A stretch of 64,000 bases of DNA from contig NZ_SKBR01000002.1 in assembly GCF_013450295.1 (NCBI RefSeq), forward strand, positions 1,326,501 through 1,390,500, in the 5' to 3' direction. Made by a program: the position numbers and the translations under genes. This DNA is from Streptomyces sp. AJS327 (GTDB taxonomy: Bacteria; Actinomycetota; Actinomycetes; Streptomycetales; Streptomycetaceae). The notes under the pieces are model-generated. The model ran no database searches. It had not been told where the DNA came from and saw only the letters and a program-made list of their open reading frames with translations. The first letter of the stretch is position 1. Each line of letters opens with the position of its first letter. Below, piece after piece: positions 10,338 through 59,715 of the stretch.

Positions 10338-11591
10338 TCAGGCGGGGCCCTCCTCGCGCACGTCGAAGCGGACCCCGGCGCGCACCAGCCGCGCGGTCAG
10401 TGCCTCACCCATCGCGGCGGCCGTGGTGACCTGGCCGGAGGTCTCCGGCAGCCCCCCGTCCAGCGCGAGGCAGAGGGCGGACTCCGCGAGGAACTTGGCG
10501 GTCTCGTCGTACCCCGGATCGCCGCCCGACACCTCGGTGACCACTCGGCGTCCACCGCCCGTGCCGACGAAGCGCGCCGAGAACCAGCTCCGGGCCCGGC
10601 GCGCCGCGTCCGGACCCTCGCCCGGGGCCAGGCGCGACATCAACAGCCGCCGGGTGGAGGGGTGCTGGGCGAGCAGGGCCAGCGTGCCCAACCCCGCGAC
10701 GCCGCCGACCACGGTCGGCAGGTGCCTGACCGCCGCGTAGTGCCGGTAGCGGAAGTCGGGGCCGTAACGTTCCAGCGCGGCCGCCGAACGCCCCACCACA
10801 CGCGGGTCGATGGTCGGCAGCGGCACCGCCCAGTCGCCCTGGTCCGCCCCGCGGCGGATCCGGTCCACCGGGGTGCGCACCGTCCGGCCCGGGGGCCGGG
10901 GGTCGGCCCGCCGCCGCTCCCGCGCGGTGCGCGCCATCCGCCGCCCGCGCGCGAAGGCCAGCAGCGCGCTGGAGAAGGTGCCGCCCGACAGCCCGGCGTT
11001 GGACCGTACGAAGCCGTCGACCCGCAGCGGCACGCCCTCGGGCAGCCGCTCGACGGTGAGGCGGACCCCCAGGTCGTACGGGATCGAGTCGAAGCCGCAG
11101 GAGTGCACCAGCCGCGCCCCGGTGCGGCGGGCCCGTTCGTGGCAGCGGAGGTAGGTCAGGTCCACGAACTCCGGCTCTCCGCTGATGTCCAGGTAGTCCG
11201 TGCCGGTGTCGGCGCACGCCGCGACCAGCGCGTGGCCGTAGCGGATGTACGGGCCCACCGTGGTGGCCACCACCCGTGCGCTGGCCGCGAGTTGACGCAG
11301 CGCGGCGCCGTCGGTGACGTCCGCCTCCAGCAGCGGGAGGTCGGCGAGGGCCGGGTGGGTGGCGGCCAACTCGGAGCGGAGCGCCGCCAGTTTCCGCGCG
11401 TCCCGGCCCGCGAGGGCCCAGCGCAGCCCCGGGGGCGCCTGCCGGGCCAGGTAGTGGGCGGTGAGACGGCCGGTGAACCCCGTGGCGCCGAACAGGACCA
11501 CGTCGTACGGGCGGGTGTTCTCCCGCGCCGCCGTGCCGCCCGGGGGGTGTCCGCCAGGGGCGCCGTCCGCCCGCTCGTTCCGCTCCGGCAC
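10338..11591 (-). CDS. Saccharopine-dehydrogenase-like oxidoreductase (trans-acting enoyl reductase family)
   Basis: This is a 417-residue protein. After a disordered leader comes a Rossmann NAD(P)-binding motif, VVLFGATGFTGRLTAHYLA. Further family marks are VATTVGPYIRYG, TDYLDISGEPEFV and HSCGFDSIPYDLG. Mycobacterial relatives include enzymes acting on lipid intermediates (Rv2953-type), but most homologues are uncharacterised. The GTG at 11591 is chosen because AGGAG lies five bases upstream. It is the last gene of an osmC - nei - this gene operon (62-base gap) and is followed by a strong hairpin. Confidence 0.8.
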   Translation of the reverse strand: MPERNERADGAPGGHPPGGTAARENTRPYDVVLFGATGFTGRLTAHYLARQAPPGLRWALAGRDARKLAALRSELAATHPALADLPLLEADVTDGAALRQLAASARVVATTVGPYIRYGHALVAACADTGTDYLDISGEPEFVDLTYLRCHERARRTGARLVHSCGFDSIPYDLGVRLTVERLPEGVPLRVDGFVRSNAGLSGGTFSSALLAFARGRRMARTARERRRADPRPPGRTVRTPVDRIRRGADQGDWAVPLPTIDPRVVGRSAAALERYGPDFRYRHYAAVRHLPTVVGGVAGLGTLALLAQHPSTRRLLMSRLAPGEGPDAARRARSWFSARFVGTGGGRRVVTEVSGGDPGYDETAKFLAESALCLALDGGLPETSGQVTTAAAMGEALTARLVRAGVRFDVREEGPA

Positions 11592-11653
11592 CGCAACTCC
11601 TCGCTCTCGTCCGCCGCGTCGGGGTGGCCCGGGCGGGGCCCGGGCCACCCCGG

Positions 11654-12520
11654 CTATTTCAGCAGACGCGACATCCGCCGGTCAGCGAGGATGCGGCCAT
11701 CGGTCTGACAGGCCGGGCAGTACTCCAGCGACGAGTCGCGGAACACCACCGACCGGACGGTGTCCCCGCACACCGGGCACTCCTCGCCCGCGCGGCCGTG
11801 CACCCGCATGCGCGCCCGCTTGTGCCCCCTGAGCCGTCCCGCCGCGACCCCGCCCGCCGCGGCCACCGCCTCCCGCAGCACCGCGCCGATCGCCACGTAC
11901 AGCCGGCCGGTCTCCTCCTCGGTCAGCTCGGCGGCCAGCCGGTACGGCGAGAGGCGGGCGGCGTGCAGGATCTCGTCCGAGTAGGCGTTGCCCACCCCGG
12001 CCAGCACGCTCTGGTCGCGCAACAGCCCCTTGACGCGGTGCCGCTGGCCGCGCAGCAGCCCGGCCAGCACCTCGGGAGTGAAGCCGGGGTCCAGCGGGTC
12101 CGGGCCGAGCCGGGCGATCCCCGGCACCTCGTCCGGCCGCCACACGCAGTACACCGCGAGGTCCTTGCGGGGCCCGGCCTCGGTGAGGTCGAAGCCGGTG
12201 CGCGGGGGCTCGGCCAGCTCCAGTCGCAGGGCCAGCGGTCCCCGGCCCGGACGGGGCGGGGTGTCCGGGAGGCGGTCGTGCCAGCGCACCCAGCCCGCCC
12301 GGGCCAGGTGGAGGACCAGACGCGGGCCGTCGCAGGCCAGGTCCAGGAACTTGCCGTGCCGGGCGACGGACGTGACGGTCCGTCCGTCCAGCGCGTCCAG
12401 CGGTGGGTCGTAGGTCTTGAGCACGTTCACCGCGAGCGGCAGCACCCGCGCCACCGGGTGTCCCACCAGCCGGTCCGCCAGGAAGCTCCGCAGGGCCTCG
12501 ACCTCGGGCAGCTCGGGCAT
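11654..12520 (-). CDS. Fpg/Nei-family DNA glycosylase
   Basis: This 288-residue base-excision-repair enzyme removes oxidised bases and cuts the abasic site by beta/delta elimination. MPELPEVE at the N-terminus supplies the catalytic Pro2 and Glu3. VLAGVGNAYSDEILH is the H2TH region. The C-terminal zinc finger has four cysteines, CPVCGD and YCPACQTDGR, with the intercalating Arg in DGR. The ATG follows GGAGGACCAG directly. It lies 24 bases after osmC, which fits an oxidative-damage operon. It is likely a Nei2-type paralogue rather than housekeeping MutM, which normally sits elsewhere. Confidence 0.9.
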   Translation of the reverse strand: MPELPEVEALRSFLADRLVGHPVARVLPLAVNVLKTYDPPLDALDGRTVTSVARHGKFLDLACDGPRLVLHLARAGWVRWHDRLPDTPPRPGRGPLALRLELAEPPRTGFDLTEAGPRKDLAVYCVWRPDEVPGIARLGPDPLDPGFTPEVLAGLLRGQRHRVKGLLRDQSVLAGVGNAYSDEILHAARLSPYRLAAELTEEETGRLYVAIGAVLREAVAAAGGVAAGRLRGHKRARMRVHGRAGEECPVCGDTVRSVVFRDSSLEYCPACQTDGRILADRRMSRLLK

Positions 12521-12544
12521 CTGGTCCTCCCGTCCGCGAGCCGG

Positions 12545-12970
12545 TCAGCCCAGCGACGCCGACAGTGTGATCGGGACGCCGGTGAGCGCCTGGCTGACCG
12601 GACAGTTCACCTTCGCGTCCTCCGCCGCCGAGACGAACGCCGCCTCGTCCAGCCCCGGAACCTCGCCGCGCACCGTCAGCCGCACGCCGGTGATGCCGGT
12701 GCCGGGCTGGAAGGTCACGTCGGCCTGGGTGGTCAGCCGGGAGGGCGGGTTCCCCGCGCCGCTCAGCCCGTTGGACAGCGCCATCGAGAAGCAGCTGGAG
12801 TGGGCCGCGGCGATCAGCTCCTCGGGGCTGGTCTTGCCGTCCGGTTCCTCGGCGCGCGCGGGCCAGGAGACCGGGTGCTCGCCGAGACCGGACGAGTCGA
12901 AGCTCAGCGTCCCCCTCCCCTCGGTCAGCGAGCCGGTCCAGATGGTGTGCGCCGTACGTGTCGTAGCCAT
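12545..12970 (-). CDS. OsmC/Ohr-family peroxiredoxin-like protein
   Basis: This is a 141-residue protein that reduces organic hydroperoxides through two conserved cysteines, here in SSCFSMALS and VNCPVSQALTG. The order TSPEELIAAAHSSCF is the OsmC signature. I use ATG 12970 because GGAGG (12978-12982) lies seven bases upstream; a TTG two codons earlier would touch the ribosome site. It is the first gene of the osmC-nei operon. The motif set matches OsmC better than Ohr. Confidence 0.88.
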   Translation of the reverse strand: MATTRTAHTIWTGSLTEGRGTLSFDSSGLGEHPVSWPARAEEPDGKTSPEELIAAAHSSCFSMALSNGLSGAGNPPSRLTTQADVTFQPGTGITGVRLTVRGEVPGLDEAAFVSAAEDAKVNCPVSQALTGVPITLSASLG

Positions 12971-48493: not shown

Positions 48494-49471
48494 TCAGCGG
48501 TGGCGGCCCAGTGCCCGCCAGCCCTCCCAGGCGGAGGAGACCATGTCCGGCAGCGTGTGGCGGGGCGTCCACTCCAGTCGCGTCGACGCCCGCTGGACGG
48601 AGGCCACCACCCTGGCCGGGTCGCCGGGACGACGCGCCACGACCTCGGCGGCGGGCTCCCGGATCCCGGTGACCTCGGCGACCAGGTCGGCCATCTCGCG
48701 GACCGAGGCCCCCTCCCCGGTGCCGATGTTGACCGTCAGGTCACCGCCCGAGCCGTCCGGCGCGAGCGCGCCCGCCGCCGCGACGTGGGCGTCGGCCAGG
48801 TCCTGGACGTGGATGTAGTCCCGCACGCCGGTGCCGTCCGGCGTCGGGTAGTCGTCGCCGAAGATCCGCGGGGCCTCGCCCCGGCTCAGCGCCTCGAAGA
48901 ACATCGGGATGATGTTGGCCGCGCCGGTGTCCGCCAGCTGGGGCCGGGCCGCGCCCGCCACGTTGAAGTACCGCAGGCAGGAGGTGGACACCCCGTGCGC
49001 CCGGCCGGTGGCGCGAACCAGCCACTCGCCCGCGAGCTTGGTCTCGCCGTAGGGGTTGATCGGCAGGCACGGGGTCTCCTCGGTGACGAGGTCCACGTCC
49101 GGCATGCCGTAGACGGCGGCGGAGGAGGAGAGGACGAAGCGCCGCACCCCGGCCGCCACGACGGCCTCCAGCAGGACCGTCAGCCCGTGCACGTTCTCCC
49201 GGTAGTAGCGCAGCGGCTGCTCGACCGACTCCCCGACCTGCTTCCGCGCCGCGAGGTGGATCACCCCGTCGACCCCGTGCTCCCGGATCGTGCGCGCGAC
49301 CAGGTCGCCGTCCAACGTCGAGCCCCGCACCAGCGGCACCTCCGCGGGCAGCCGCGCGGCCACCCCGGTGGAGAGGTCGTCCAGCACGACCAGTGGTTCA
49401 CCGGCCCGCCTCATGGCCTCCACCACGTGTGCGCCGATATAGCCCGCCCCGCCTGTGATCAACCACGTCAT
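48494..49471 (-). CDS. galE: UDP-glucose 4-epimerase
   Basis: This is a 325-residue extended short-chain dehydrogenase. The NAD motif is TGGAGYIGAHVVEAM, the catalytic Ser is in LSSSAAVYG and the Tyr-x3-Lys is in NPYGETKL. RYFNVAGA, IPMFF and DYIHVQDLADAH are GalE signatures. It interconverts UDP-glucose and UDP-galactose for envelope sugars. TAGGCT six bases before the ATG suggests a leaderless message. It is divergent from the seven-gene envelope operon, so it may supply sugar nucleotides to it. Confidence 0.9.
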   Translation of the reverse strand: MTWLITGGAGYIGAHVVEAMRRAGEPLVVLDDLSTGVAARLPAEVPLVRGSTLDGDLVARTIREHGVDGVIHLAARKQVGESVEQPLRYYRENVHGLTVLLEAVVAAGVRRFVLSSSAAVYGMPDVDLVTEETPCLPINPYGETKLAGEWLVRATGRAHGVSTSCLRYFNVAGAARPQLADTGAANIIPMFFEALSRGEAPRIFGDDYPTPDGTGVRDYIHVQDLADAHVAAAGALAPDGSGGDLTVNIGTGEGASVREMADLVAEVTGIREPAAEVVARRPGDPARVVASVQRASTRLEWTPRHTLPDMVSSAWEGWRALGRHR

Positions 49472-50110: not shown

Positions 50111-52000
50111 CTGTCGACCGCCATCCTCACCGGTCCACCGGTCGCCGGGGCGCCGCTGGAGGGCGACCTGCGGTCGCTCGGCTTCGCCGTGCGCGTGGCC
50201 GAGGACAGCGCCGGGGTCGCGGCGGAGCTGGCCGCGCTGCCCCCGGACGAGCGCGTGGCCCTCGTCGACCCGCGCTTCGTGGGACACCTCCAGTCCCTCC
50301 GACTCGCCCTGACCGACCCCCGGTTCGCCGCGGGGGCGGTGCCCGGCGCGCTCGCCGTCCGCGCTGACGCGCGGGGCGGTCTGTCCCGCGCCGTCGCGCG
50401 GGAGACGTCGCCCGCGGCGAGCGCAGCACCGGTCCACCCCGCCGACCCGGCGGCCCGCTCCGACCGCGGTGACGACGGCCCCGCCGGGCGTCCCGGCGGC
50501 GCGGGCGACTGCCTGCCGGACCGCTGGGCCGCCGACCTGGAGGCCGGGGGCGTCCCGGTGCACCGGCCCGAACTCGGCGTGCTGGTCGGCCGGGTGCCCT
50601 CCGGAGGCGCCGAACGCGAGGCCGCGGTCGCGGCGGTCGCGGCCGTCGACGACGAGGCCGTCCGGCTCCGGTCCGCGGTCAAACAGCGGGACGGCTTCTT
50701 CACCACCTTCTGCGTCAGCCCCTACTCCCGCTACCTCGCGCGCTGGTGCGCCCGGCGCGGCCTCACCCCGAACCAGGTCACCACGGCCTCGCTGATCACC
50801 GCGCTGATCGCGGCGGCTTGCGCGGCCAGCGGGGAGCGGGCCGGGTTCGTCGCCGCCGGCGTGCTGCTGCTCGCCTCCTTCGTGCTGGACGCGACGGACG
50901 GGCAGCTCGCCCGCTACGACCTCCAGTACTCCACCCTCGGCGCCTGGCTGGACGCCACCTTCGACCGGGCCAAGGAGTACGCCTACTACGCGGGCCTGGC
51001 GCTCGGCGCCGCCCGGGGCGGGGACGACGTCTGGGCGCTCGCGCTGGGCGCGATGGTGCTCCAGACCGTCCGGCACGTCGTCGACTTCTCCTTCACCGAG
51101 GCGAACCACGACGCCAGCGCCAACACCAGCCCCACGGCGGCCCTTTCGGGCCGGCTGGACAGCGTCGGCTGGACGATCTGGGTCCGCCGCATGATCGTGC
51201 TGCCGATCGGCGAACGCTGGGCGCTGATCGCCGTGCTGACCGCGGTGACCACCCCGCGCGTCACCCTCGTCGTCCTGCTGGCCGGTTGTGCGCTGGCGGC
51301 CTGCTACACCACCGCGGGCCGGGTCCTGCGCTCACTGACCCGGCGTGCGGCGCGCACCGACCGCGCCGCCCAGGCCCTCGGCGACCTCGCGGACTCCGGT
51401 CCGCTCGCCGAGGTGGCGGCCCGGGCGCTGCGCGGGGTGCGGCTGCCCCAGTTCGGGCCGCCCGCCGTCGCGTTCGTGGCCTCGGCGGGGCTGACGGCGC
51501 TCGCGCTGTGGGGCCCGCTGGGCAGCCCCTGGCTCTGCGTCGCGGCGCTCGGCTACGCGCTGCTGTCCGGACTGGCCGTCGCCCGCCCGCTGAAGGGCCC
51601 GCTCGACTGGCTGGCCCCACCCTTCTTCCGGGCCGCCGAGTACTGCGCGATCCTGGCGCTCGCGGCCCGCTCCGAGGTGGACGGGGCGCTGCCGGCGGCC
51701 TTCGGGCTGGTGGCCGCCGTCGCCTACCATCACTACGACACGGTCTACCGCATTCGCGGCGGTACCGGTTCGCCTCCGCGCCGCCTGGTGCGGGCGATCG
51801 GGGGGCACGAAGGACGGACCCTGCTCGTGACGGTCGCCGCCGCCAGCTGGCTGGGCGGCGACAGTCCGCGATCGGGATTCACCCTCGCGCTGGCCGCGCT
51901 GGCCGTGGTCATCGCGGCCGTGGTGCTCGCAGAGAGCATCCGATTCTGGGTGTCATCGCACGCACCCGCCGTACACGACGAAACTGGAGAACCCGCATGA
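50111..52000 (+). CDS. DUF5941-like protein with CDP-alcohol phosphotransferase domain; CTG start
   Basis: This is a 629-residue protein. The N-terminal 190 residues (STAILTGPPVAGAPLEGDLRSLGF...) resemble a degenerate nucleotidyltransferase-type region. Next is an integral CDP-alcohol phosphotransferase domain with an intact D260-x2-D-G-x2-A-R-x8-G-x3-D281-x3-D285 motif, then more membrane helices. The frame opens just after TGA at 50102. The only early start is CTG at 50111, nine bases after AAGGAG; the first GTG (50189) would cut off conserved-looking sequence. It should join an alcohol phosphate from a CDP-alcohol to an acceptor at the membrane. Confidence 0.75.
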   Translation: MSTAILTGPPVAGAPLEGDLRSLGFAVRVAEDSAGVAAELAALPPDERVALVDPRFVGHLQSLRLALTDPRFAAGAVPGALAVRADARGGLSRAVARETSPAASAAPVHPADPAARSDRGDDGPAGRPGGAGDCLPDRWAADLEAGGVPVHRPELGVLVGRVPSGGAEREAAVAAVAAVDDEAVRLRSAVKQRDGFFTTFCVSPYSRYLARWCARRGLTPNQVTTASLITALIAAACAASGERAGFVAAGVLLLASFVLDATDGQLARYDLQYSTLGAWLDATFDRAKEYAYYAGLALGAARGGDDVWALALGAMVLQTVRHVVDFSFTEANHDASANTSPTAALSGRLDSVGWTIWVRRMIVLPIGERWALIAVLTAVTTPRVTLVVLLAGCALAACYTTAGRVLRSLTRRAARTDRAAQALGDLADSGPLAEVAARALRGVRLPQFGPPAVAFVASAGLTALALWGPLGSPWLCVAALGYALLSGLAVARPLKGPLDWLAPPFFRAAEYCAILALAARSEVDGALPAAFGLVAAVAYHHYDTVYRIRGGTGSPPRRLVRAIGGHEGRTLLVTVAAASWLGGDSPRSGFTLALAALAVVIAAVVLAESIRFWVSSHAPAVHDETGEPA

Positions 52001-52749
52001 TCGGCCTCGTTCTCGCGGCCGGCGCCGGCCGGCGTCTGCGCCCCTACACCGACACGCTCCCCAAGGCCCTGGTGCCCGTGGGGCCGGAGGGGGACGGCGA
52101 AGCCAAGACTGTCCTCGACCTGACCCTCGCCAACTTCGCGGAGGTCGGCCTGAGCGAGGTCGCCATCGTGGTCGGGTACCGCAAGGAGGCCGTCTACGAG
52201 CGCAAGGCGGCGCTGGAGGAGAAGTACGGCCTGGCGATCACCCTGATCGACAACGACAAGGCCGAGGAGTGGAACAACGCCTACTCCCTGTGGTGCGCGC
52301 GGGACGCCATCAAGCACGGCGTGATCCTCGCCAACGGTGACACCGTCCACCCGCCCTCCGTCGAGCGGACGCTGCTGGCGGCGCGCGGTGACGACCGGCG
52401 GATCATCCTGGCGCTGGACACCGTCAAGGACCTGGCCGACGAGGAGATGAAGGTCGTCGTCGACCCGGAGAAGGGCGTCCGCCGCATCACCAAGCTGATG
52501 GACCCGGCCGAGGCCACCGGCGAGTACATCGGGGTCACCCTCATCGAGGGCGAGGCCGCCGACGACCTCGCCGACGCGCTGCGCGCCACCTTCGAGCGCG
52601 ACCCCGACCTCTACTACGAGGACGGCTACCAGGAGTTGGTGAACCGCGGCCTCAGGATCGACACCGCGTCCATCGGGGACGTCCGCTGGGTCGAGATCGA
52701 CAACCACGACGATCTCGCCAAGGGCCGGGAGATCGCATGCCAGTACTGA
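51997..52749 (+). CDS. Nucleotidyltransferase (phosphoalcohol cytidylyltransferase-like)
   Basis: This is a 250-residue protein with the sugar-nucleotidyltransferase fold. LVLAAGAGRRLRPYTDTLPKALVPVG binds the NTP. NAYSLWCARDAI and LANGDTVHPPS carry the metal Asp, and WVEIDNHDDLAKG is the C-terminal motif shared with phosphocholine and inositol-phosphate cytidylyltransferases. ATGA overlap with the preceding gene. Next to two CDP-alcohol phosphotransferases it most likely makes their CDP-activated substrate; CTP use is inference. Confidence 0.85.
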   Translation: MIGLVLAAGAGRRLRPYTDTLPKALVPVGPEGDGEAKTVLDLTLANFAEVGLSEVAIVVGYRKEAVYERKAALEEKYGLAITLIDNDKAEEWNNAYSLWCARDAIKHGVILANGDTVHPPSVERTLLAARGDDRRIILALDTVKDLADEEMKVVVDPEKGVRRITKLMDPAEATGEYIGVTLIEGEAADDLADALRATFERDPDLYYEDGYQELVNRGLRIDTASIGDVRWVEIDNHDDLAKGREIACQY

Positions 52750-53798
52750 CCCGCCTCATCCCGTCCCCCGTCGTCGTCGACATCCGCGCCGGCGCCCTGG
52801 ACGGCCTGGCGGGCCTGCTGGCCGACCAGCGGATCTCCGCGAAGGGCAAGCTCGCCCTCGCGATCAGCGGCGGCTCGGGCGCCGGGCTGCGCGAGCGGTT
52901 CGCGCCGGAGCTGCCCAACGCCGACTGGTACGAGGTCGGCGGCGGCACCATCGACGACGCCATCAAGCTCGCCGACGCTATGAAGTCCGGCCGCTACGAC
53001 GCGGTGGTCGGGCTCGGCGGCGGCAAGATCATCGACTGCGCGAAGTTCGCCGCCGCCCGCATCGGCCTGCCACTGGTCGCCGTCGCGACGAACCTGTCGC
53101 ACGACGGCCTCTGCTCGCCCGTCGCCACCCTGGACAACGACGCCGGGCGCGGCTCCTACGGCGTGCCCAACCCGATCGCGGTCGTGATCGACCTGGATGT
53201 CATCCGCGAGGCACCGCCCCGCTTCGTCCGTTCCGGTATCGGGGACGCGGTCTCCAACATCTCCGCCGTCCGGGACTGGGAGCTGGGACACGAGGTACGC
53301 GGCGAGGACATCGACGGCCTGGCCGCCGCGATGGCCCGGCAGGCCGGCGAGGCCGTGCTCCGGCACCCCGGCTGCACCGGCGACGACGGGTTCCTCCAGG
53401 TGCTCGCCGAAGGCCTGGTGCTCACCGGCATCTCGATGTCGGTGGCGGGCGACAGCCGTCCGGCCTCCGGCGCCTGCCACGAGATCAACCACGCCTTCGA
53501 CCTGCTGCACCCCCGGCGCGCCGCGAGCCACGGTGAACAGTGCGGTCTGGGCGCCGCGTTCGCCACCCACCTGCGGGGCGACGCGGAGACCGCCGGGCTG
53601 ATGGCGCAGGTGCTGCGGCGCCACGGGCTGCCGGTGCTCCCCTCCGAGATCGGCTTCAGCGAGGACGAGTTCGTGGAGGTCGTCGCCTACGCGCCGCAGA
53701 CCCGTCCCGGGCGGTACACCATCCTGGAGCACCTCGACCTGTCCACCGACCAGATCAGGGACGCGTACGCCGACTATGCACAAGCCATCGGTAGCTGA
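52737..53798 (+). CDS. Glycerol-1-phosphate-dehydrogenase-like enzyme (EgsA/AraM group)
   Basis: This is a 353-residue member of the iron-containing alcohol dehydrogenase superfamily. EVGGGTIDDAIKLADAM and VGLGGGKIIDCAKFAA bind NAD(P)H. VATNLSHDGLCSPVATL, SGACHEINHAFDLL and ASHGEQCGLG supply the Asp/His/His metal ligands. These are the marks of sn-glycerol-1-phosphate dehydrogenases, which reduce dihydroxyacetone phosphate with the stereochemistry used in archaeal lipids. The 13-base overlap with the gene before it shows tight coupling. The exact substrate is unproven. Confidence 0.75.
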   Translation: MPVLTRLIPSPVVVDIRAGALDGLAGLLADQRISAKGKLALAISGGSGAGLRERFAPELPNADWYEVGGGTIDDAIKLADAMKSGRYDAVVGLGGGKIIDCAKFAAARIGLPLVAVATNLSHDGLCSPVATLDNDAGRGSYGVPNPIAVVIDLDVIREAPPRFVRSGIGDAVSNISAVRDWELGHEVRGEDIDGLAAAMARQAGEAVLRHPGCTGDDGFLQVLAEGLVLTGISMSVAGDSRPASGACHEINHAFDLLHPRRAASHGEQCGLGAAFATHLRGDAETAGLMAQVLRRHGLPVLPSEIGFSEDEFVEVVAYAPQTRPGRYTILEHLDLSTDQIRDAYADYAQAIGS

Positions 53799-54561
53799 AC
53801 TCCGCCCGGTCGTCCACCCGGAGGGTGTGAAGGACCGCCGCAGCGGTGAGCACTGGGCCGGGCGGCTCTACATGCGGGAACTGTCGCTGCGCGTCGACCC
53901 GTACCTGGTGAACACCAGGATCACGCCCAACCAGCTCACCTACGCGATGGTGGTGGCGGGCGTGCTGGCCGGGGCGGCGCTGCTGGTGCCGGGCCTGACC
54001 GGGGCGCTGCTGGGCGCGTTGCTCATCCAGCTCTACCTGCTGCTGGACTGTGTGGACGGCGAGGTGGCCCGCTGGCGCGGCCAGACCTCGATCACCGGGG
54101 TCTACCTCGACCGGGTGGGCCACTACCTGTCCGAGGCGGCGCTGCTGGTGGGCTTCGGGATCCGGGCCGCCGACGTCTTCCACACGGAGGGCGCCAGCAC
54201 CCAGTGGATGTGGGCGTTCCTGGGGACGGTCGCCGCGCTCGGCGCGATCCTGATCAAGGCCGAGACGGACCTGGTCGACGTGGCCAGGGCGCGTAGCGGG
54301 CGGCCCACAGTCCAGGACGAGGCGGCCGTACCGCGCTCCTCCGGGCTGGCGCTGGCCCGCCGGGCGGCGGCGGCGCTCAAGTTCCACCGGCTGGTCGGTG
54401 GGGTGGAGGCGTCGCTGCTGATCCTGGTGGTCGCGGTGCTGGACCTGATCGGCGGCGACCTCTTCTTCACCCGGCTCGGCGTGGCGGTGCTGGCGGCCAT
54501 CGCGGTGCTCCAGACCCTGCTGCACCTGGTGTCCATCCTGGCTTCCAGCAGGCTCAAGTGA
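53776..54561 (+). CDS. CDP-alcohol phosphotransferase with Asp-to-His change
   Basis: This is a 261-residue protein with about six membrane helices. The motif reads D91-C-V-D94-G-E-V-A-R99, Gly108, Asp112 and then His116 where the fourth catalytic Asp belongs. The soluble N-terminus (VVHPEGVKDRRSGEHWAGRLYMRELSLRVDPYLV) is typical of inositol- or glycerol-phosphate transferring members. It overlaps the dehydrogenase gene by 23 bases. The changed residue may alter chemistry or acceptor use compared with the first gene's domain. Confidence 0.83.
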   Translation: MHKPSVAELRPVVHPEGVKDRRSGEHWAGRLYMRELSLRVDPYLVNTRITPNQLTYAMVVAGVLAGAALLVPGLTGALLGALLIQLYLLLDCVDGEVARWRGQTSITGVYLDRVGHYLSEAALLVGFGIRAADVFHTEGASTQWMWAFLGTVAALGAILIKAETDLVDVARARSGRPTVQDEAAVPRSSGLALARRAAAALKFHRLVGGVEASLLILVVAVLDLIGGDLFFTRLGVAVLAAIAVLQTLLHLVSILASSRLK

Positions 54562-55460
54562 CCACCGGCGGCGGGGAGTTCCGGCCGCTCCGGCTGGGCG
54601 CCGTGGTGATCACCATGGGCGATCGCCCGCGGGAACTCCGGGCGCTGCTGGACTCGGTGGCCCGGCAGCACGGCGATCCGGTCGAGGTGGCCGTGGTCGG
54701 GAACGGCGCTCCGCTGCCCGCGCTGCCCGAGGGCGTGCGGGCGGTGGAGCTGCCGGAGAACCTCGGCATCCCGGGCGGCCGGAACGTCGGCATCGAGGCG
54801 TTCGGCCCCGCCGGCTCCGAGGTGGACGTCCTGCTCTTCCTGGACGACGACGGGCTGCTGCCGGAGCCGGGGACGGCGGAGCTGGTCCGGGAGGCGTTCG
54901 CCGCCGACCCGGGGCTCGGCATCGTCAGCTTCCGGATCGCCGATCCGGAGACCGGCGAGACACAGCGCCGCCACGTTCCCCGGCTGCGCGCCTCCGACCC
55001 GCACCGCTCCTCGCGGGTGACGACCTTCCTGGGCGGCGCCAGCGCGGCCCGTACCGCGGTCTTCGCCCAGGTGGGCGGGTTGCCCGAGGAGTTCTTCTAC
55101 GCGCACGAGGAGACGGACCTCGCCTGGCGGGCGCTGGACGCCGGGTGGTCGATCGACTACCGCGCGGATATGGTGCTGCACCACCCCACCACCGAGCCCA
55201 GCCGGCACGCGGTGTACCACCGGCTGGTGGCCCGGAACCGGGTCTGGCTGGCCCGGCGTAACCTCCCGCTCCCGCTGGTACCGCTCTACGTCGGTGTCTG
55301 GCTGCTGCTCACCCTGGCGCGGCGGCCGTCCCGGGCCGCGCTCCGTGCCTGGTGGGGCGGTTTCCGCGAGGGCTGGAGGGTGCCGTGCGGTCCCCGCAGG
55401 CCGATGCGGTGGCGTACGGTATGGCGGTTGACCCGACTGGGTCGCCCTCCCGTGATCTGA
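54558..55460 (+). CDS. GT2-family glycosyltransferase
   Basis: This is a 300-residue protein with a GT-A fold. GAVVITMGDRPRELRALLDSV begins the nucleotide site, ENLGIPGGRNVGIEAFG is typical of rhamnosyl/galactofuranosyl-type GT2, LLFLDDDG is the DxD metal motif, and FFYAHEETDLAWRALDAGW is the catalytic ED region. The C-terminus has one hydrophobic patch (LVPLYVGVWLLLTLA) that may anchor it. GTG overlaps the previous stop by four bases. It probably adds a sugar to the operon's product. Confidence 0.87.
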   Translation: MTTGGGEFRPLRLGAVVITMGDRPRELRALLDSVARQHGDPVEVAVVGNGAPLPALPEGVRAVELPENLGIPGGRNVGIEAFGPAGSEVDVLLFLDDDGLLPEPGTAELVREAFAADPGLGIVSFRIADPETGETQRRHVPRLRASDPHRSSRVTTFLGGASAARTAVFAQVGGLPEEFFYAHEETDLAWRALDAGWSIDYRADMVLHHPTTEPSRHAVYHRLVARNRVWLARRNLPLPLVPLYVGVWLLLTLARRPSRAALRAWWGGFREGWRVPCGPRRPMRWRTVWRLTRLGRPPVI

Positions 55461-55526
55461 GAAGCTCGGGTCTGAGAGCATCGGCCTCCAGGCCCACTGC
55501 GCAGTGTGAGGACGAAAGTTTCCAAC

Positions 55527-56465
55527 GTGAGCGAGACAACCCACGATCGCGTGGCCGGTGTGACGCCCCCACCGTCGCCGGACGACCGGCTGTCCCCGGC
55601 CGAACTCGCGGCCAAGTACGGTCTCTCGGTGAGTGGAGCCCGCCCCTCACTGCCGCAGTACGTGCGGCAGCTGTGGGAGCGGCGGTTCTTCATCCTGGCG
55701 TTCTCCCGGGCCAAGCTGACGGCGCAGTACAGCAAGGCGAAGCTGGGCCAGCTCTGGCAGGTGGCCACCCCGCTGCTGAACGCGCTGGTGTTCTTCTTCA
55801 TCTTCGGTCTGCTGCTCGGTGGCCGGGGTGGCATGAAGAATGACGAGTACATCCCCTTCCTGGTCACCGGGGTCTTCCTGTTCACCTTCACCCAGCAGTC
55901 GGTGATGTCCGGGGTGCGGGCGATCTCCGGGAACCTGGGGCTGGTGCGGGCGCTGCACTTCCCGCGCGCCTCGCTGCCGATCTCGTTCGCCCTCCAGCAG
56001 CTCCAGCAGCTGCTCTACTCGATGATCGTGCTGCTGGTGGTGCTGCTCGGCTTCGGGCACTTCCCGACCTGGGCGTGGCTGCTGATCGTGCCGACGCTCG
56101 CCCTCCAGCTGGTGTTCAACGCGGGTATCTGCCTGACCATGGCCCGGCTGGGCAGCAAGACCCCGGACCTCGCGCAGCTGATGCCCTTCATCATGCGGAC
56201 CTGGATGTACGCGTCCGGCGTGATGTTCCCGCTGGACTACATGCTGCGGAAGCGGGCGGGCGCCCCTGAGTGGGTGGTGAACCTGGCCGAGGCGAACCCG
56301 ATCTCGGTCTACATGCAGATCATGCGGTACGCGCTGGTCGACGGGCCACACCACACCGCGCTTCCGGGGCACGTCTGGGGGCTGGCCGTGGGCTGGGCGG
56401 TGCTGTTCGGTATCGGGGGGTTCATTTTCTTCTGGAAGGCGGAGGAGCGGTATGGCCGTGGCTGA
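55527..56465 (+). CDS. ABC-2 polysaccharide/teichoic-acid exporter permease (TagG/Wzm-like)
   Basis: This is a 312-residue membrane protein. The cytosolic N-terminus is followed by RDLKxRY-like AFSRAKLTAQYSKAKLGQLWQVATPLLNALVFFFIF, which is typical of TagG/Wzm. Six membrane segments are present, with NPISVYMQIMRYAL near the end. Two GTG starts are possible (55506 and 55527). I prefer 55527 because the sequence from VSETTHD onward looks native, though its ribosome site (AGGA, 14 bases upstream) is poor. It is 66 bases after the glycosyltransferase and overlaps the ATPase gene. Confidence 0.88.
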   Translation: MSETTHDRVAGVTPPPSPDDRLSPAELAAKYGLSVSGARPSLPQYVRQLWERRFFILAFSRAKLTAQYSKAKLGQLWQVATPLLNALVFFFIFGLLLGGRGGMKNDEYIPFLVTGVFLFTFTQQSVMSGVRAISGNLGLVRALHFPRASLPISFALQQLQQLLYSMIVLLVVLLGFGHFPTWAWLLIVPTLALQLVFNAGICLTMARLGSKTPDLAQLMPFIMRTWMYASGVMFPLDYMLRKRAGAPEWVVNLAEANPISVYMQIMRYALVDGPHHTALPGHVWGLAVGWAVLFGIGGFIFFWKAEERYGRG

Positions 56466-57294
56466 GGACACCGAGCGGAACGACCAGGCCGCCGCCCCGC
56501 TCCCGCCCGCGGCCCCCTCGCCCGAGGCGGAGGCGGGCTGGGTCCCGACCGTCATCGCGGAGAACCTGCACATCGTCTACCGGGTGTACGGCGGATCGAA
56601 GGGCAAGGGCAGCGCGACGGCGGCGCTCAACCGCATCGTCCGGCGCCGTCCGGGCGCCGGGGTGCGCGAGGTGCACGCGGTGCGCGGGGTCAGCTTCACC
56701 GCGTACCGGGGGCAGGCGATCGGCCTCATCGGCACCAACGGTTCCGGCAAGTCGACGCTGCTGAAGGCGATCGCGGGGCTGCTGCCCGCCGAGAGCGGGC
56801 ACGTCTACTCGGACGGTCAGCCCTCGCTGCTCGGCGTCAACGCGGCGATGATGAACGACCTCACCGGTGAGCGGAACGTGGTGCTGGGCGGGCTCGCGAT
56901 GGGGATGACGCGCGAGCAGATCCGGGAGCGCTACCAGGGGATCGTCGACTTCTCCGGCATCAACGAGAAGGGTGACTTCATCACCCTGCCGATGCGGACG
57001 TACTCCTCGGGGATGTCCGCGCGGCTGCGTTTCTCGATCGCGGCGGCGAAGGACCACGACGTGCTGATGATCGACGAGGCGCTGGCGACCGGGGACAAGA
57101 AGTTCCAGAAGCGCTCGGAGGCGCGCATCCGGGAGCTGCGTGAGGAGGCCGGGACGGTCTTCCTGGTGAGCCACAACAACAAGAGCATACGAGACACCTG
57201 CGACCGGGTGCTCTGGCTGGAGAAGGGCGAACTCGTCCAGGACGGGCCCACCAACGAGGTGCTCAAGGAGTACGAGAAGTTCACCTCGAAGTGA
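56452..57294 (+). CDS. ABC exporter ATPase (TagH/Wzt-like)
   Basis: This is a 280-residue ATPase. After a Pro/Ala-rich tail, VIAENLHIVYRVYGGSKGKG opens the fold. Walker A is GTNGSGKST, the signature is the YSSGMSARLRFS variant typical of TagH/Wzt exporters, and Walker B is VLMIDEALATGDKKF. There is no C-terminal carbohydrate-binding domain, so the exporter is of the TagH short type. It overlaps the permease gene by 14 bases and is the last gene of the operon, followed by a strong terminator. Confidence 0.92.
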   Translation: MAVAEDTERNDQAAAPLPPAAPSPEAEAGWVPTVIAENLHIVYRVYGGSKGKGSATAALNRIVRRRPGAGVREVHAVRGVSFTAYRGQAIGLIGTNGSGKSTLLKAIAGLLPAESGHVYSDGQPSLLGVNAAMMNDLTGERNVVLGGLAMGMTREQIRERYQGIVDFSGINEKGDFITLPMRTYSSGMSARLRFSIAAAKDHDVLMIDEALATGDKKFQKRSEARIRELREEAGTVFLVSHNNKSIRDTCDRVLWLEKGELVQDGPTNEVLKEYEKFTSK

Positions 57295-57389: not shown

Positions 57390-59630
57390 TCAGACCCCGG
57401 CCGGGGTGCGCTCCCGTCCGCCGCCTCCGTGGGCGCCCTCCGGGTCGCCCGCGCCGACGTCCCGTCCGCTCTCGTCCAGCCCGACCGCGGCGTGCAGGGC
57501 GCGCAGCGGTCGTGGCGCGTACCAGGCCGCGCGGCCCAGCAGCCGCATCGCGGCGGGAACCAGCACGCCCCGCACCGCCACCGCGTCGATGAGGATGGCG
57601 AGGCCGCTGCCGACGCCGAACATCTGGAGGAAGCTGACCTGGCTGGTGCCGAAGGCGAAGAAGCTGACGGCCAGCAGCCCGGCGGCCATCGTCACGATGC
57701 GTCCGGTGCGGGAGAGTCCGCCGGTGACGGCGGTGGCGCTGTCGGCGCCCGCGTCGTGCAGCTCCTTGATCCGGCTGGTGACGAACACCTCGTAGTCCAT
57801 GGACAGTCCGAAGACGATGCAGAACATCAGGACCGTCATCGAGGTGTCCATCGGCGTCGGCGTGAAGCCGAGCAGCGAGGACAGATGGCCCTCCTGGAAG
57901 ATCCACACCATCGCGCCGACCGAGGCCGTGAGGCTGACGGTGTTCAGCACCAGCGCGCGCAGCGGCTGGACGACGCTTCCGGTGAAGAGGAAGAGCAGCG
58001 CGAAGGTGGTGACCACCACCAGCGCGACAGCCGCGGGGAGCCGGTCACCGATCGACCGCTTGGAGTCGACGAGTTCGGCCGCCCGGCCGCCGACCAGGGT
58101 CTCCGCCCCGCCGGGCCCGTCCAGCCCGCGCACCTCGCGGACCAGGTCCTGCGCGGCGGGGGAGGAGGGGTCGGCCTTCGGGAGGACCGTGAGGCGGTGG
58201 GCGTCGCCGCGCGGGGCGTGGTCGGCCGGGGCGGGCCCGTCGACGGCGCGGCCGTCCCGGTAGCCGCCGGCCGCGGACTGGACCAGGCCGGCGCCGTCGA
58301 GGCGGGACAGCGCCGCCGCGTACCGCGCGACCTCCCGTTCCCCGGCCGGGCCGGTGGCGACGATCTGGAGCGCGTCGGCCGCGTTGCCGGGGAAGTCCCG
58401 CCGGGTCTCGGTGGCCACCTGGCGACTCTCGGCCTTCTCCGGCAGTACCCGCTCGTCGGGGATGCCGAAGGAGGCGCCGAGCAGCGGGCTCGCCGCGAGC
58501 AGCAGGACGGCGAGCACCGGGAGCGCGGTGAGCGCGGGGCGGCGCATCACGGTGGCGGCGAGCCGTCCCCAGAAGGGCGCGTCGGCGCGGCGTACCGCCC
58601 GGGCCCAGGGCAGCCGCCCGCTGTTGACGCGGTGCCCGAGCACCACCAGCAGCGCCGGGATGACGAGCAGCGCGGCGAGCGCGGCGACGGCCACCACCCC
58701 GATTCCGGCGTACGCGAAGGAGCGCAGGAAGAACTGTGGGAACAGGAGGAGAGCGGCGAGCGCGGCCATCACGGTGGCGGCTGAGAAGGCGATGGTGCGC
58801 CCGGCGGTGGTGACCGTGGTGCGCAGCGCCTCCGGTATCTCGTCGCCCTCCGTGAGCCGTTCGCGGAACCGGCTGACCAGCAGCAGCCCGTAGTCGATGC
58901 CCAGGCCGAGCCCGAGAGCGGTGGTCAGGTTGATCGCGAAGACCGACACGTCGGTGACGCTGCCGAGCAGGTACAGCTCGGCGAAGGTGCCGGCGATCGC
59001 GATGAGCCCGATGGCGAGCGGCAGCAGCGCGGCGACCACGCTGCCGAACGCGATCACCAGGAGGACCAGCGTGACGGGCACCGCGATGGACTCGGCGACC
59101 AGCAGGTCGGTGGAGACCTGGGTGCCGATGTCGTTGCCGAGCGCGGCGCTCCCTCCCGCCCGCACGGTGAGCGGGCCGCGTTCGCCCGTCCAGGCGTCCA
59201 CCACCTTTCTGGCGTGCTCCTCGACGGCGTCGGGGTCGCCCTCGACGTGGGCGAGGACCAGCGCCTTGTTCCCGTCCCGGGAGGTGAGCCCGGGGGCCGA
59301 GGTGTCCCAGTGGGAGACGACGCGGGACAGCCGCGGCTCCTCGCGGAGTCCGGCGGTCAGCTCGCGGCCCGCGGTGCGGGCGGCGGGCGAGTCGAGCGCG
59401 GTCCCCGGTTCGGTGGTGACGAGCAGGACGAGGTTCTGCTCGCCCCCGAACCGTTCCTCGATGACCTCCCTGGCCTGGCTGGACGGTGCGGACGGGTCCT
59501 CGAACCCGCCGTTCTTGAGCGTGCCGAAGGCCCCGGCGCCGACGGCGCCCATGGCCGCCACCGCGAGCACGGTGAGCAACAGGAGCGCGCGGGCCCGGCG
59601 CAGGGCGAGGTCGGCGATGCGTGCTAACAC
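57390..59630 (-). CDS. MMPL-family (RND) transporter with TTA second codon
   Basis: This is a 746-residue exporter with two repeats of membrane helices, each with a large outer loop. The first repeat has AINLTTALGLGLGIDYGLLLVSRFRERL and the second FCIVFGLSMDYEVFVTSRIKELHD; the GIDY and SMDY motifs form the proton path in MmpL proteins. GTG 59630 follows GGGGAG at six bases, and codon 2 is TTA, so translation needs the bldA tRNA. It is divergent from a TetR gene with two shared operators. The cargo is probably a lipid or hydrophobic drug. Confidence 0.92.
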   Translation of the reverse strand: MLARIADLALRRARALLLLTVLAVAAMGAVGAGAFGTLKNGGFEDPSAPSSQAREVIEERFGGEQNLVLLVTTEPGTALDSPAARTAGRELTAGLREEPRLSRVVSHWDTSAPGLTSRDGNKALVLAHVEGDPDAVEEHARKVVDAWTGERGPLTVRAGGSAALGNDIGTQVSTDLLVAESIAVPVTLVLLVIAFGSVVAALLPLAIGLIAIAGTFAELYLLGSVTDVSVFAINLTTALGLGLGIDYGLLLVSRFRERLTEGDEIPEALRTTVTTAGRTIAFSAATVMAALAALLLFPQFFLRSFAYAGIGVVAVAALAALLVIPALLVVLGHRVNSGRLPWARAVRRADAPFWGRLAATVMRRPALTALPVLAVLLLAASPLLGASFGIPDERVLPEKAESRQVATETRRDFPGNAADALQIVATGPAGEREVARYAAALSRLDGAGLVQSAAGGYRDGRAVDGPAPADHAPRGDAHRLTVLPKADPSSPAAQDLVREVRGLDGPGGAETLVGGRAAELVDSKRSIGDRLPAAVALVVVTTFALLFLFTGSVVQPLRALVLNTVSLTASVGAMVWIFQEGHLSSLLGFTPTPMDTSMTVLMFCIVFGLSMDYEVFVTSRIKELHDAGADSATAVTGGLSRTGRIVTMAAGLLAVSFFAFGTSQVSFLQMFGVGSGLAILIDAVAVRGVLVPAAMRLLGRAAWYAPRPLRALHAAVGLDESGRDVGAGDPEGAHGGGGRERTPAGV

Positions 59631-59662
59631 GGAGATCTCCCCAAGTACTGTGCCGCCGCCTG

Positions 59663-59715
59663 ATGTTGACGGCGTAAACATAGACGGTGGCACTCGATGT
59701 TTATGCTGTCAACAT
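59663..59715. promoter_or_regulatory. Two 19-bp TetR operators
   Basis: Each 19-mer is a near-palindrome of the form ATGTTkAyrsyGTmAACAT: 59663-59681 and 59697-59715. The two 20-base arms GATGTTGACGGCGTAAACAT and ATGTTTATGCTGTCAACATC are also inverted copies of each other (18 of 20). TATGCT at 59702-59707 inside the right operator can be the tetR -10 box. The left operator lies 33 bases upstream of the MMPL start. Confidence 0.85.

Follow-up and report, generated by a model that had tools for sequence, protein, structure and literature searches.

A conserved seven-gene operon of Streptomyces that may build and export an envelope glycopolymer from sn-glycerol-1-phosphate

Introduction

The lipoteichoic acid (LTA) of Streptomyces hygroscopicus is poly(glycerol phosphate), similar to its wall teichoic acid (WTA), and that of S. 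coelicolor looks alike; an LTA-like polymer was not found in S. verticillus (PMC3196553). A clear orthologue of LtaS was absent from the actinobacterial genomes sequenced by then, and a pathway shared by LTA and WTA was proposed there but not proved (PMC3196553). Elsewhere the two polymers are described as enantiomeric, with glycerol-3-phosphate (Gro3P) in WTA and glycerol-1-phosphate (Gro1P) in LTA, told apart by GlpQ (PMC7086022), and for Actinobacillus pleuropneumoniae the presence of both enantiomeric precursors was considered unlikely (PMC8262930). Here we analyze an operon of seven genes, A–G, in a window of 64,000 nucleotides (the whole stretch of DNA analyzed) from Streptomyces sp. AJS327. 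Its sequence is consistent with a pathway for the synthesis and export of an envelope glycopolymer of glycerol phosphate, or of the lipid anchor of one, from the sn-glycerol-1-phosphate (G1P) enantiomer, a reading that we regard as evenly poised.

The closest described systems each match the operon in part. Like the Bacillus WTA pathway (TagD, TagB/TagF, TagGH), the operon has a TagGH-type exporter and, as predicted here, the logic of a cytidine diphosphate (CDP)-glycerol donor, and TagF-type genes are present in most genomes that bear it. Unlike that pathway, it goes without TagD and has an unrelated nucleotidyltransferase and a G1P dehydrogenase instead, is predicted to use the opposite enantiomer, and includes CDP-alcohol phosphotransferases; moreover, TagA-type proteins (PF03808) occur in just 13 of 61 Streptomyces genomes, an even sample on which our survey of the genus is based. 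Archaeal EgsA and Bacillus AraM share with gene C the dehydrogenase family and the aligned metal-ligand positions, whereas C is paired with a nucleotidyltransferase and falls under the equivalog cut-off, and the seven genes include none for prenyl ether lipids. Archaeoglobus IPCT-DIPPS and AF2299 likewise combine a cytidylyltransferase-like domain with a CDP-alcohol phosphotransferase of the same fold that uses soluble CDP-alcohols; by contrast, the operon has separate genes B, A and D, D is without the fourth aspartate of the motif, and A carries DUF5941. Finally, Gtp1-3 of Streptococcus pneumoniae 23F resemble B and C in that they reportedly include a cytidylyltransferase and a reductase that give an unusual CDP-glycerol, although the genes are different and the product is CDP-2-glycerol.

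The synteny of the locus is itself on record. A 2026 study of 929 Streptomyces genomes lists the genes of this region as a teichoic-acid-associated synteny with gene duplications, naming a CDP-alcohol transferase, a GT2 glycosyltransferase, crtB, tagH, tagG, araM and a sugar-phosphate nucleotidyltransferase, whereas pathway, enantiomer and functional test are absent from the available part of its account (PMC13118837). The cluster, which our initial annotation of the window had presented as a candidate new pathway, is already published as a gene arrangement, though not as to function: our literature search found no tested function for the operon, and PMC13118837 was the only paper it returned that joins a CDP-alcohol phosphatidyltransferase, a G1P dehydrogenase and an ABC transporter. 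The presumed gene names SCO6752-6757 led to one paper, apparently on another topic. A Streptomyces G1P dehydrogenase is included in the alignment of PMC5059525.

Results

From the open reading frames and domain searches of the window, we identified seven co-directional genes at 50111-57294:

Gene A, 50111..52000, plus strand: N-terminal alpha/beta domain, PF01066 CDP-alcohol phosphotransferase domain carrying the complete motif DATDGQLARYDLQYSTLGAWLDATFD, and C-terminal DUF5941 membrane domain; CTG start
Gene B, 51997..52749, plus strand: NTP_transferase-family nucleotidyltransferase, a candidate CTP:sn-glycerol-1-phosphate cytidylyltransferase
Gene C, 52737..53798, plus strand: Fe-ADH_2 / G1P-dehydrogenase-like protein of the EgsA/AraM type, predicted sn-glycerol-1-phosphate dehydrogenase
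Gene D, 53776..54561, plus strand: PF01066, CDP-alcohol phosphotransferase fold with the fourth motif Asp changed to His or Ala
Gene E, 54558..55460, plus strand: GT2 glycosyltransferase
Gene F, 55506..56465, plus strand: ABC2_membrane; ABC-2 permease of the TagG/Wzm type
Gene G, 56452..57294, plus strand: ABC ATPase of the TagH/Wzt type, with TagH as its best named family

The junctions from A/B to F/G measure -4, -13, -23, -4, +45 and -14 bases, and these five overlaps and one 45-base gap, together with the matched domains, bear out the overlapping seven-gene operon of the initial annotation. We then compared the 80 nearest named loci by similarity of gene C (79 Streptomyces and one Streptomycetaceae bacterium), which were picked by likeness to C and hence are no random sample of the genus. 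Genes A–G stand in identical order in 76 of these loci, and the remaining four lack just G or both F and G, at the point where their contigs stop, indicating that the arrangement is not due to chance. Where both genes of a junction were recovered, the A/B overlap of -4 was found in 78 of 78 loci, the B/C overlap of -13 in 80 of 80, the C/D overlap of -23 in 79 of 80, the D/E overlap of -4 in 65 of 80, and an overlap of F and G in 70 of 70. The E/F junction is a gap, the eight commonest values of which span 45-98 bases and cover 51 of 77 loci. The start codon of gene A is probably CTG: of the 72 Streptomyces loci whose A N-terminus was located by pattern, 68 have CTG and four have TTG at the position of codon 50111-50113, and AGG, GGA or GAG lies a few bases 5' of it in all 72 (a loose criterion). 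Our promoter scan found no promoter-like site, and a terminator scan was uninformative, with three terminator-like sites within gene F against 1.2 expected.

By sequence comparison, the product of gene C is closer to G1P dehydrogenases than to glycerol dehydrogenases. Its top solved relatives are the G1P dehydrogenases 4rgq (1.5e-42) and 4rfl (1.6e-42), followed by 3ce9, which is labelled glycerol dehydrogenase (2.2e-40), and by two further G1P dehydrogenases; other glycerol dehydrogenases match C only from 3.6e-16 (1kq3). Among NCBIfam models, that for G1P dehydrogenase scores 230 bits, as against 86 for glycerol dehydrogenase. Residue D170 is present in 98 of 99 aligned rows, and H248 and H265 are present in all 99; the three align with residues of a solved G1P dehydrogenase and are presumably metal ligands.

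The best solved relative of B is a CTP:phosphocholine cytidylyltransferase (8.1e-13), and the NCBI label of a B orthologue is 'phosphocholine cytidylyltransferase family protein'. The next matches in the PDB are 4jd0 (7.3e-9), with a nearly full-length alignment, and 6pd1 (1.2e-5), the substrates of which we take to be inositol-1-phosphate (for an IPCT-type nucleotidyltransferase) and 2-aminoethylphosphonate, respectively. The top NCBIfam match, UTP--glucose-1-phosphate uridylyltransferase, is far under its cut-off (62 of 400 bits).

The B-C pair is the most conserved unit of the operon. Both genes are present in all 61 Streptomyces genomes of the genus survey. In a phylum sample of 396 genomes, 30 genomes outside Streptomyces carry C at E<=2e-40, and we inspected 20 loci from these: in 16, C is immediately preceded by a co-directional nucleotidyltransferase gene; in one, the nucleotidyltransferase gene lies 4 kb upstream, in two it is not adjacent, and the last locus is at a contig edge. 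By eye, the nucleotidyltransferases paired with C outside Streptomyces fall into three sequence types. In one genome (G121), the pair adjoins genes for a PF04464 glycerophosphotransferase and a glycerophosphodiesterase. Taken with the nearest relatives of B and C, this pairing supports the step from G1P to CDP-glycerol that the initial annotation had envisaged, as a prediction from sequence.

A second copy of C at E<=1e-30 was found in two of the 61 Streptomyces genomes, and one more (G334) in the phylum sample. Extra B-C copies or remnants share one site in four Streptomyces genomes, beside rplU and obg, both recognized by eye:

L195:1-1421, L196:2812-4610, L064:7391-8449 and L198:7878-8619: extra B-C copies or remnants beside rplU-obg

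Two genomes have B-C at this site, G398 and G414 (B truncated at the contig end); G334 has a lone C, and G421 has a broken B. In G334 and G414, the second copies are ~4-6 kb from PF04464 genes.

We next asked which other genes for CDP-glycerol supply and use are present. TagD (TIGR01518) was above cut-off in none of the 61 Streptomyces genomes, nor was it found in the genome of the window; weak matches occur in 43 of the 61, the best at 70 of 165 bits. By contrast, TagF-type proteins (PF04464) are present in 57 of 61, with strong matches in 56 and a weak one in G425, and in the genome of the window the single strong PF04464 gene is on a different contig from the operon. The initial annotation had held that the lack of tarF/tagF polymerases sets the cluster apart. 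None of the seven genes encodes a TagF-type polymerase, but most Streptomyces genomes have such genes elsewhere, some related clusters contain or adjoin one, and what Streptomyces miss relative to the usual teichoic acid route is TagD, not TagF. In the phylum sample, with C scored at E<=2e-40 (G335, at 2.0e-40, included), PF04464 at E<=1e-40 and TagD at >=97 bits, no genome has both C and TagD; the 30 genomes with PF04464 comprise 17 with C (12 of them Streptomyces), six with TagD and seven with neither.

The CDP-alcohol phosphotransferases A and D were tested for the motif DxxDGxxAR(x8)GxxxDxxxD, which is complete in A, with seven positions conserved in 87 of 87 rows and the alanine in 86. 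The top fold match of the predicted A model (mean predicted local distance difference test score, pLDDT, 76.5 for D and 81.2 for A) is IPCT-DIPPS, and AF2299 also matches, both with low TM-scores; over the whole A model, the archaeal two-domain folds reach 0.28-0.30 of the query in the five best matches. The closest solved fold to the D model is AF2299, which accommodates CDP-glycerol (PMC4634129). For the exporter, no other protein of the genome comes near G as a TagH-type match: G scores 183 bits and the next one 66.

The genes also occur together outside close relatives, in line with the conservation across actinobacteria that the initial annotation had proposed to look for. One genome (G338) has all seven genes in the same order; two (G086, G317) have A–E together, with tagGH several kilobases off; G183 has A–E, G386 has B-C-D-A-E, and G045 has B–E with tagGH, A not being found there. 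These six belong to other families, mostly outside the class of the window. The five-gene core A–E occurs in Nonomuraea and other families; in Nonomuraea gerenzanensis, which belongs to a different order, A-B-C-D-E lie on an 11.85 Mb record classed as a plasmid. In G204, the B-C pair precedes a gene for a different CDP-alcohol phosphotransferase, with A, tagGH and a TagF-type gene located elsewhere; in G108, the cluster is split into two parts on one contig. PF04464 proteins are encoded within or beside cluster parts in G386, G204 and G121. Separately, two distant actinobacteria carry sulfotransferase genes inside or next to their related clusters (L049:5925-7031; L051:7622-8653 and 11449-12573), hinting at a sulfated product there.

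Discussion

From the observed gene order, domains, motifs, conservation, pairing and co-occurrence we infer a pathway in which every substrate, product and chirality is predicted. C would reduce dihydroxyacetone phosphate (DHAP) to G1P, and B would join G1P with CMP from CTP to give CDP-1-glycerol. A, which we liken to archaeal CDP-alcohol phosphotransferases that use soluble CDP-alcohols, would use CDP-1-glycerol to add phosphoglycerol to a membrane acceptor, e.g. diacylglycerol or a glycolipid; D would assist A or serve another acceptor, E would add sugar to the product, and F-G (TagGH) would flip the product outward. In many Streptomyces genomes, TagF-type polymerases encoded outside the operon probably draw on the same CDP-1-glycerol as well. 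A wider proposal, which is possible but which we hold with more doubt, is that Streptomyces and related actinomycetes make poly(glycerol phosphate) WTA and LTA from the CDP-1-glycerol of B-C, such that their WTA mirrors that of Bacillus, one cytosolic pathway replaces TagD and LtaS, and D, as a fold without a catalytic base, works on a different acceptor. If the pathway is as proposed, B would have a new cytidylyltransferase specificity and G1P a bacterial role beyond ether lipids, and the B-C pair, present throughout the genus survey, would supply CDP-1-glycerol as a genetically testable answer to how poly(glycerol phosphate) is made without LtaS and TagD.

Several results weigh against this reading. 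Both G and C score under the NCBIfam equivalog cut-offs, G at 183 of 320 bits for TagH (still its best named family) and C at 230 of 413 bits for G1P dehydrogenase (NF002022). The link between C and PF04464 is modest when Streptomyces are left out (PF04464 in 5 of 30 C genomes vs 13 of 354 others, p=0.0086, uncorrected for relatedness). Of the C genomes outside Streptomyces, 25 of 30 have no PF04464 match at E<=1e-40, among them all 15 from one family (f9), and therefore the B-C pair must serve something else there; the four Streptomyces genomes without a PF04464 match retain B and C, the two genes checked in them. At the second-copy site, the fetched stretch of G421, with its broken B, contains no PF04464 gene, and that of G398 is truncated by a contig end just beyond obg. 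In addition, a second-type IspD homologue (145-165 bits) is present in 31 of 61 Streptomyces genomes, that of the window included, so some Streptomyces PF04464 enzymes may use CDP-ribitol. By eye, in the genome of the window and in G107, these are proteins of 478-499 residues with a fused cytidylyltransferase, possibly CDP-ribitol synthases (L211:4090-5526, L212:10628-12127). The IspD survey weakened the idea that Streptomyces PF04464 genes in general require B-C. For the 30 Streptomyces genomes without the second-type IspD, B is the sole candidate CDP-polyol synthase found, and 29 of them have a strong PF04464 gene. In G107, the IspD-type gene adjoins obg, and a PF04464 gene follows at a distance of some kilobases, which suggests that CDP-polyol modules are exchangeable.

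The initial annotation had assigned membrane transfer to two phosphotransferases, and a further point against the pathway lies in the second of these. A retains the whole motif, but the fourth motif aspartate of D (53776) is replaced by alanine in 71 and by histidine in 18 of 89 rows, the histidine being found in the window and in seven of seven distant rows; the seven other motif residues of D are invariant in all 89. This aspartate probably serves as the catalytic base, and a PIP synthase in which asparagine takes its place is nearly inactive (PMC4634129). D may thus not act as a standard phosphotransferase. With its donor site invariant and its base lost, the sequence of D suggests activity with another acceptor chemistry; alternatively, D may be a pseudo-enzyme.

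Because of the aspartate lost from D, the four B-C genomes and 25 C genomes without PF04464, and the CDP-ribitol alternative, a glycolipid product stays a serious rival to the polymer, if on balance an unlikely one. CDP-1-glycerol and diacylglycerol would then give a phosphatidylglycerol-type membrane lipid in a Kennedy-type reaction, to be glycosylated by E and flipped by F-G. Such a phosphoglycolipid fits an operon with two membrane CDP-alcohol phosphotransferases and no polymerase among its seven genes, as well as the retention of B and C in the four Streptomyces genomes just mentioned, and the glycerol phosphate in ordinary phosphatidylglycerol is already sn-1 (PMC7086022). The exporter, however, is like polymer exporters, with TagH as the best match of G and a galactan-export permease as the best match of F, and the nearest folds, AF2299 and AfDIPPS, process no lipids (PMC4634129).

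We consider it improbable that B makes CDP-inositol or another CDP-polyol, with A-D making a glycero-phospho-inositol-type diester and C giving the glycerol-1-phosphate acceptor. The best-scoring models are archaetidylinositol-phosphate synthase for A and DIPP-synthase for D, and both the fold match of A to IPCT-DIPPS and the alignment of B with 4jd0, presumably IPCT-type, would agree with this; but the family scores are 42-66 bits against cut-offs of 170-580, B pairs with C across families, and in G121 the pair adjoins a PF04464 gene. More improbable still is a role of C in supplying an isoprenoid ether lipid of the archaeal type (prenylglyceryl phosphate), which A, B and D would modify: although the operon is preceded by idi in 74 of 74 and followed by hpnC in 65 of 65 Streptomyces loci long enough to assess, and Bacillus AraM has been linked to an archaea-type ether lipid (PMC5059525, PMC8262930), the seven genes include no prenylglyceryl-phosphate synthase (PcrB/GGGPS was not sought genome-wide), and, of the eleven non-Streptomyces loci L047-L057 searched by tblastn, only L053 gave idi and none gave hpnC or hpnD.

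Neighbouring genes and other observations

Two ideas about the flanking domains of A were dropped. The case for a degenerate second CDP-alcohol phosphotransferase in DUF5941 came down to a 12-residue resemblance, at a profile probability of 0.4%, and the N-terminal domain, considered as a relic of B, had no sequence similarity to it, at a profile probability of 0.2%. A literature search for DUF5941 gave no paper.

Upstream of the operon lies a divergent gene:

galE, 48494..49471, minus strand: inconstant neighbour, probably no part of the operon

The suggestion in the initial annotation that galE feeds the pathway is weak, and we dropped it as a pathway gene, as it is present in just 52 of the 75 Streptomyces loci where the position is visible. 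Downstream, the operon of the window is separated from hpnC by a gene for an MmpL-type transporter (57390-59693), as it is in 10 of 65 assessable Streptomyces loci. In Streptomyces fungicidicus (L200), the operon, idi and the hopanoid genes are on a 927 kb record named plasmid p1, which is possibly a chromosome arm.

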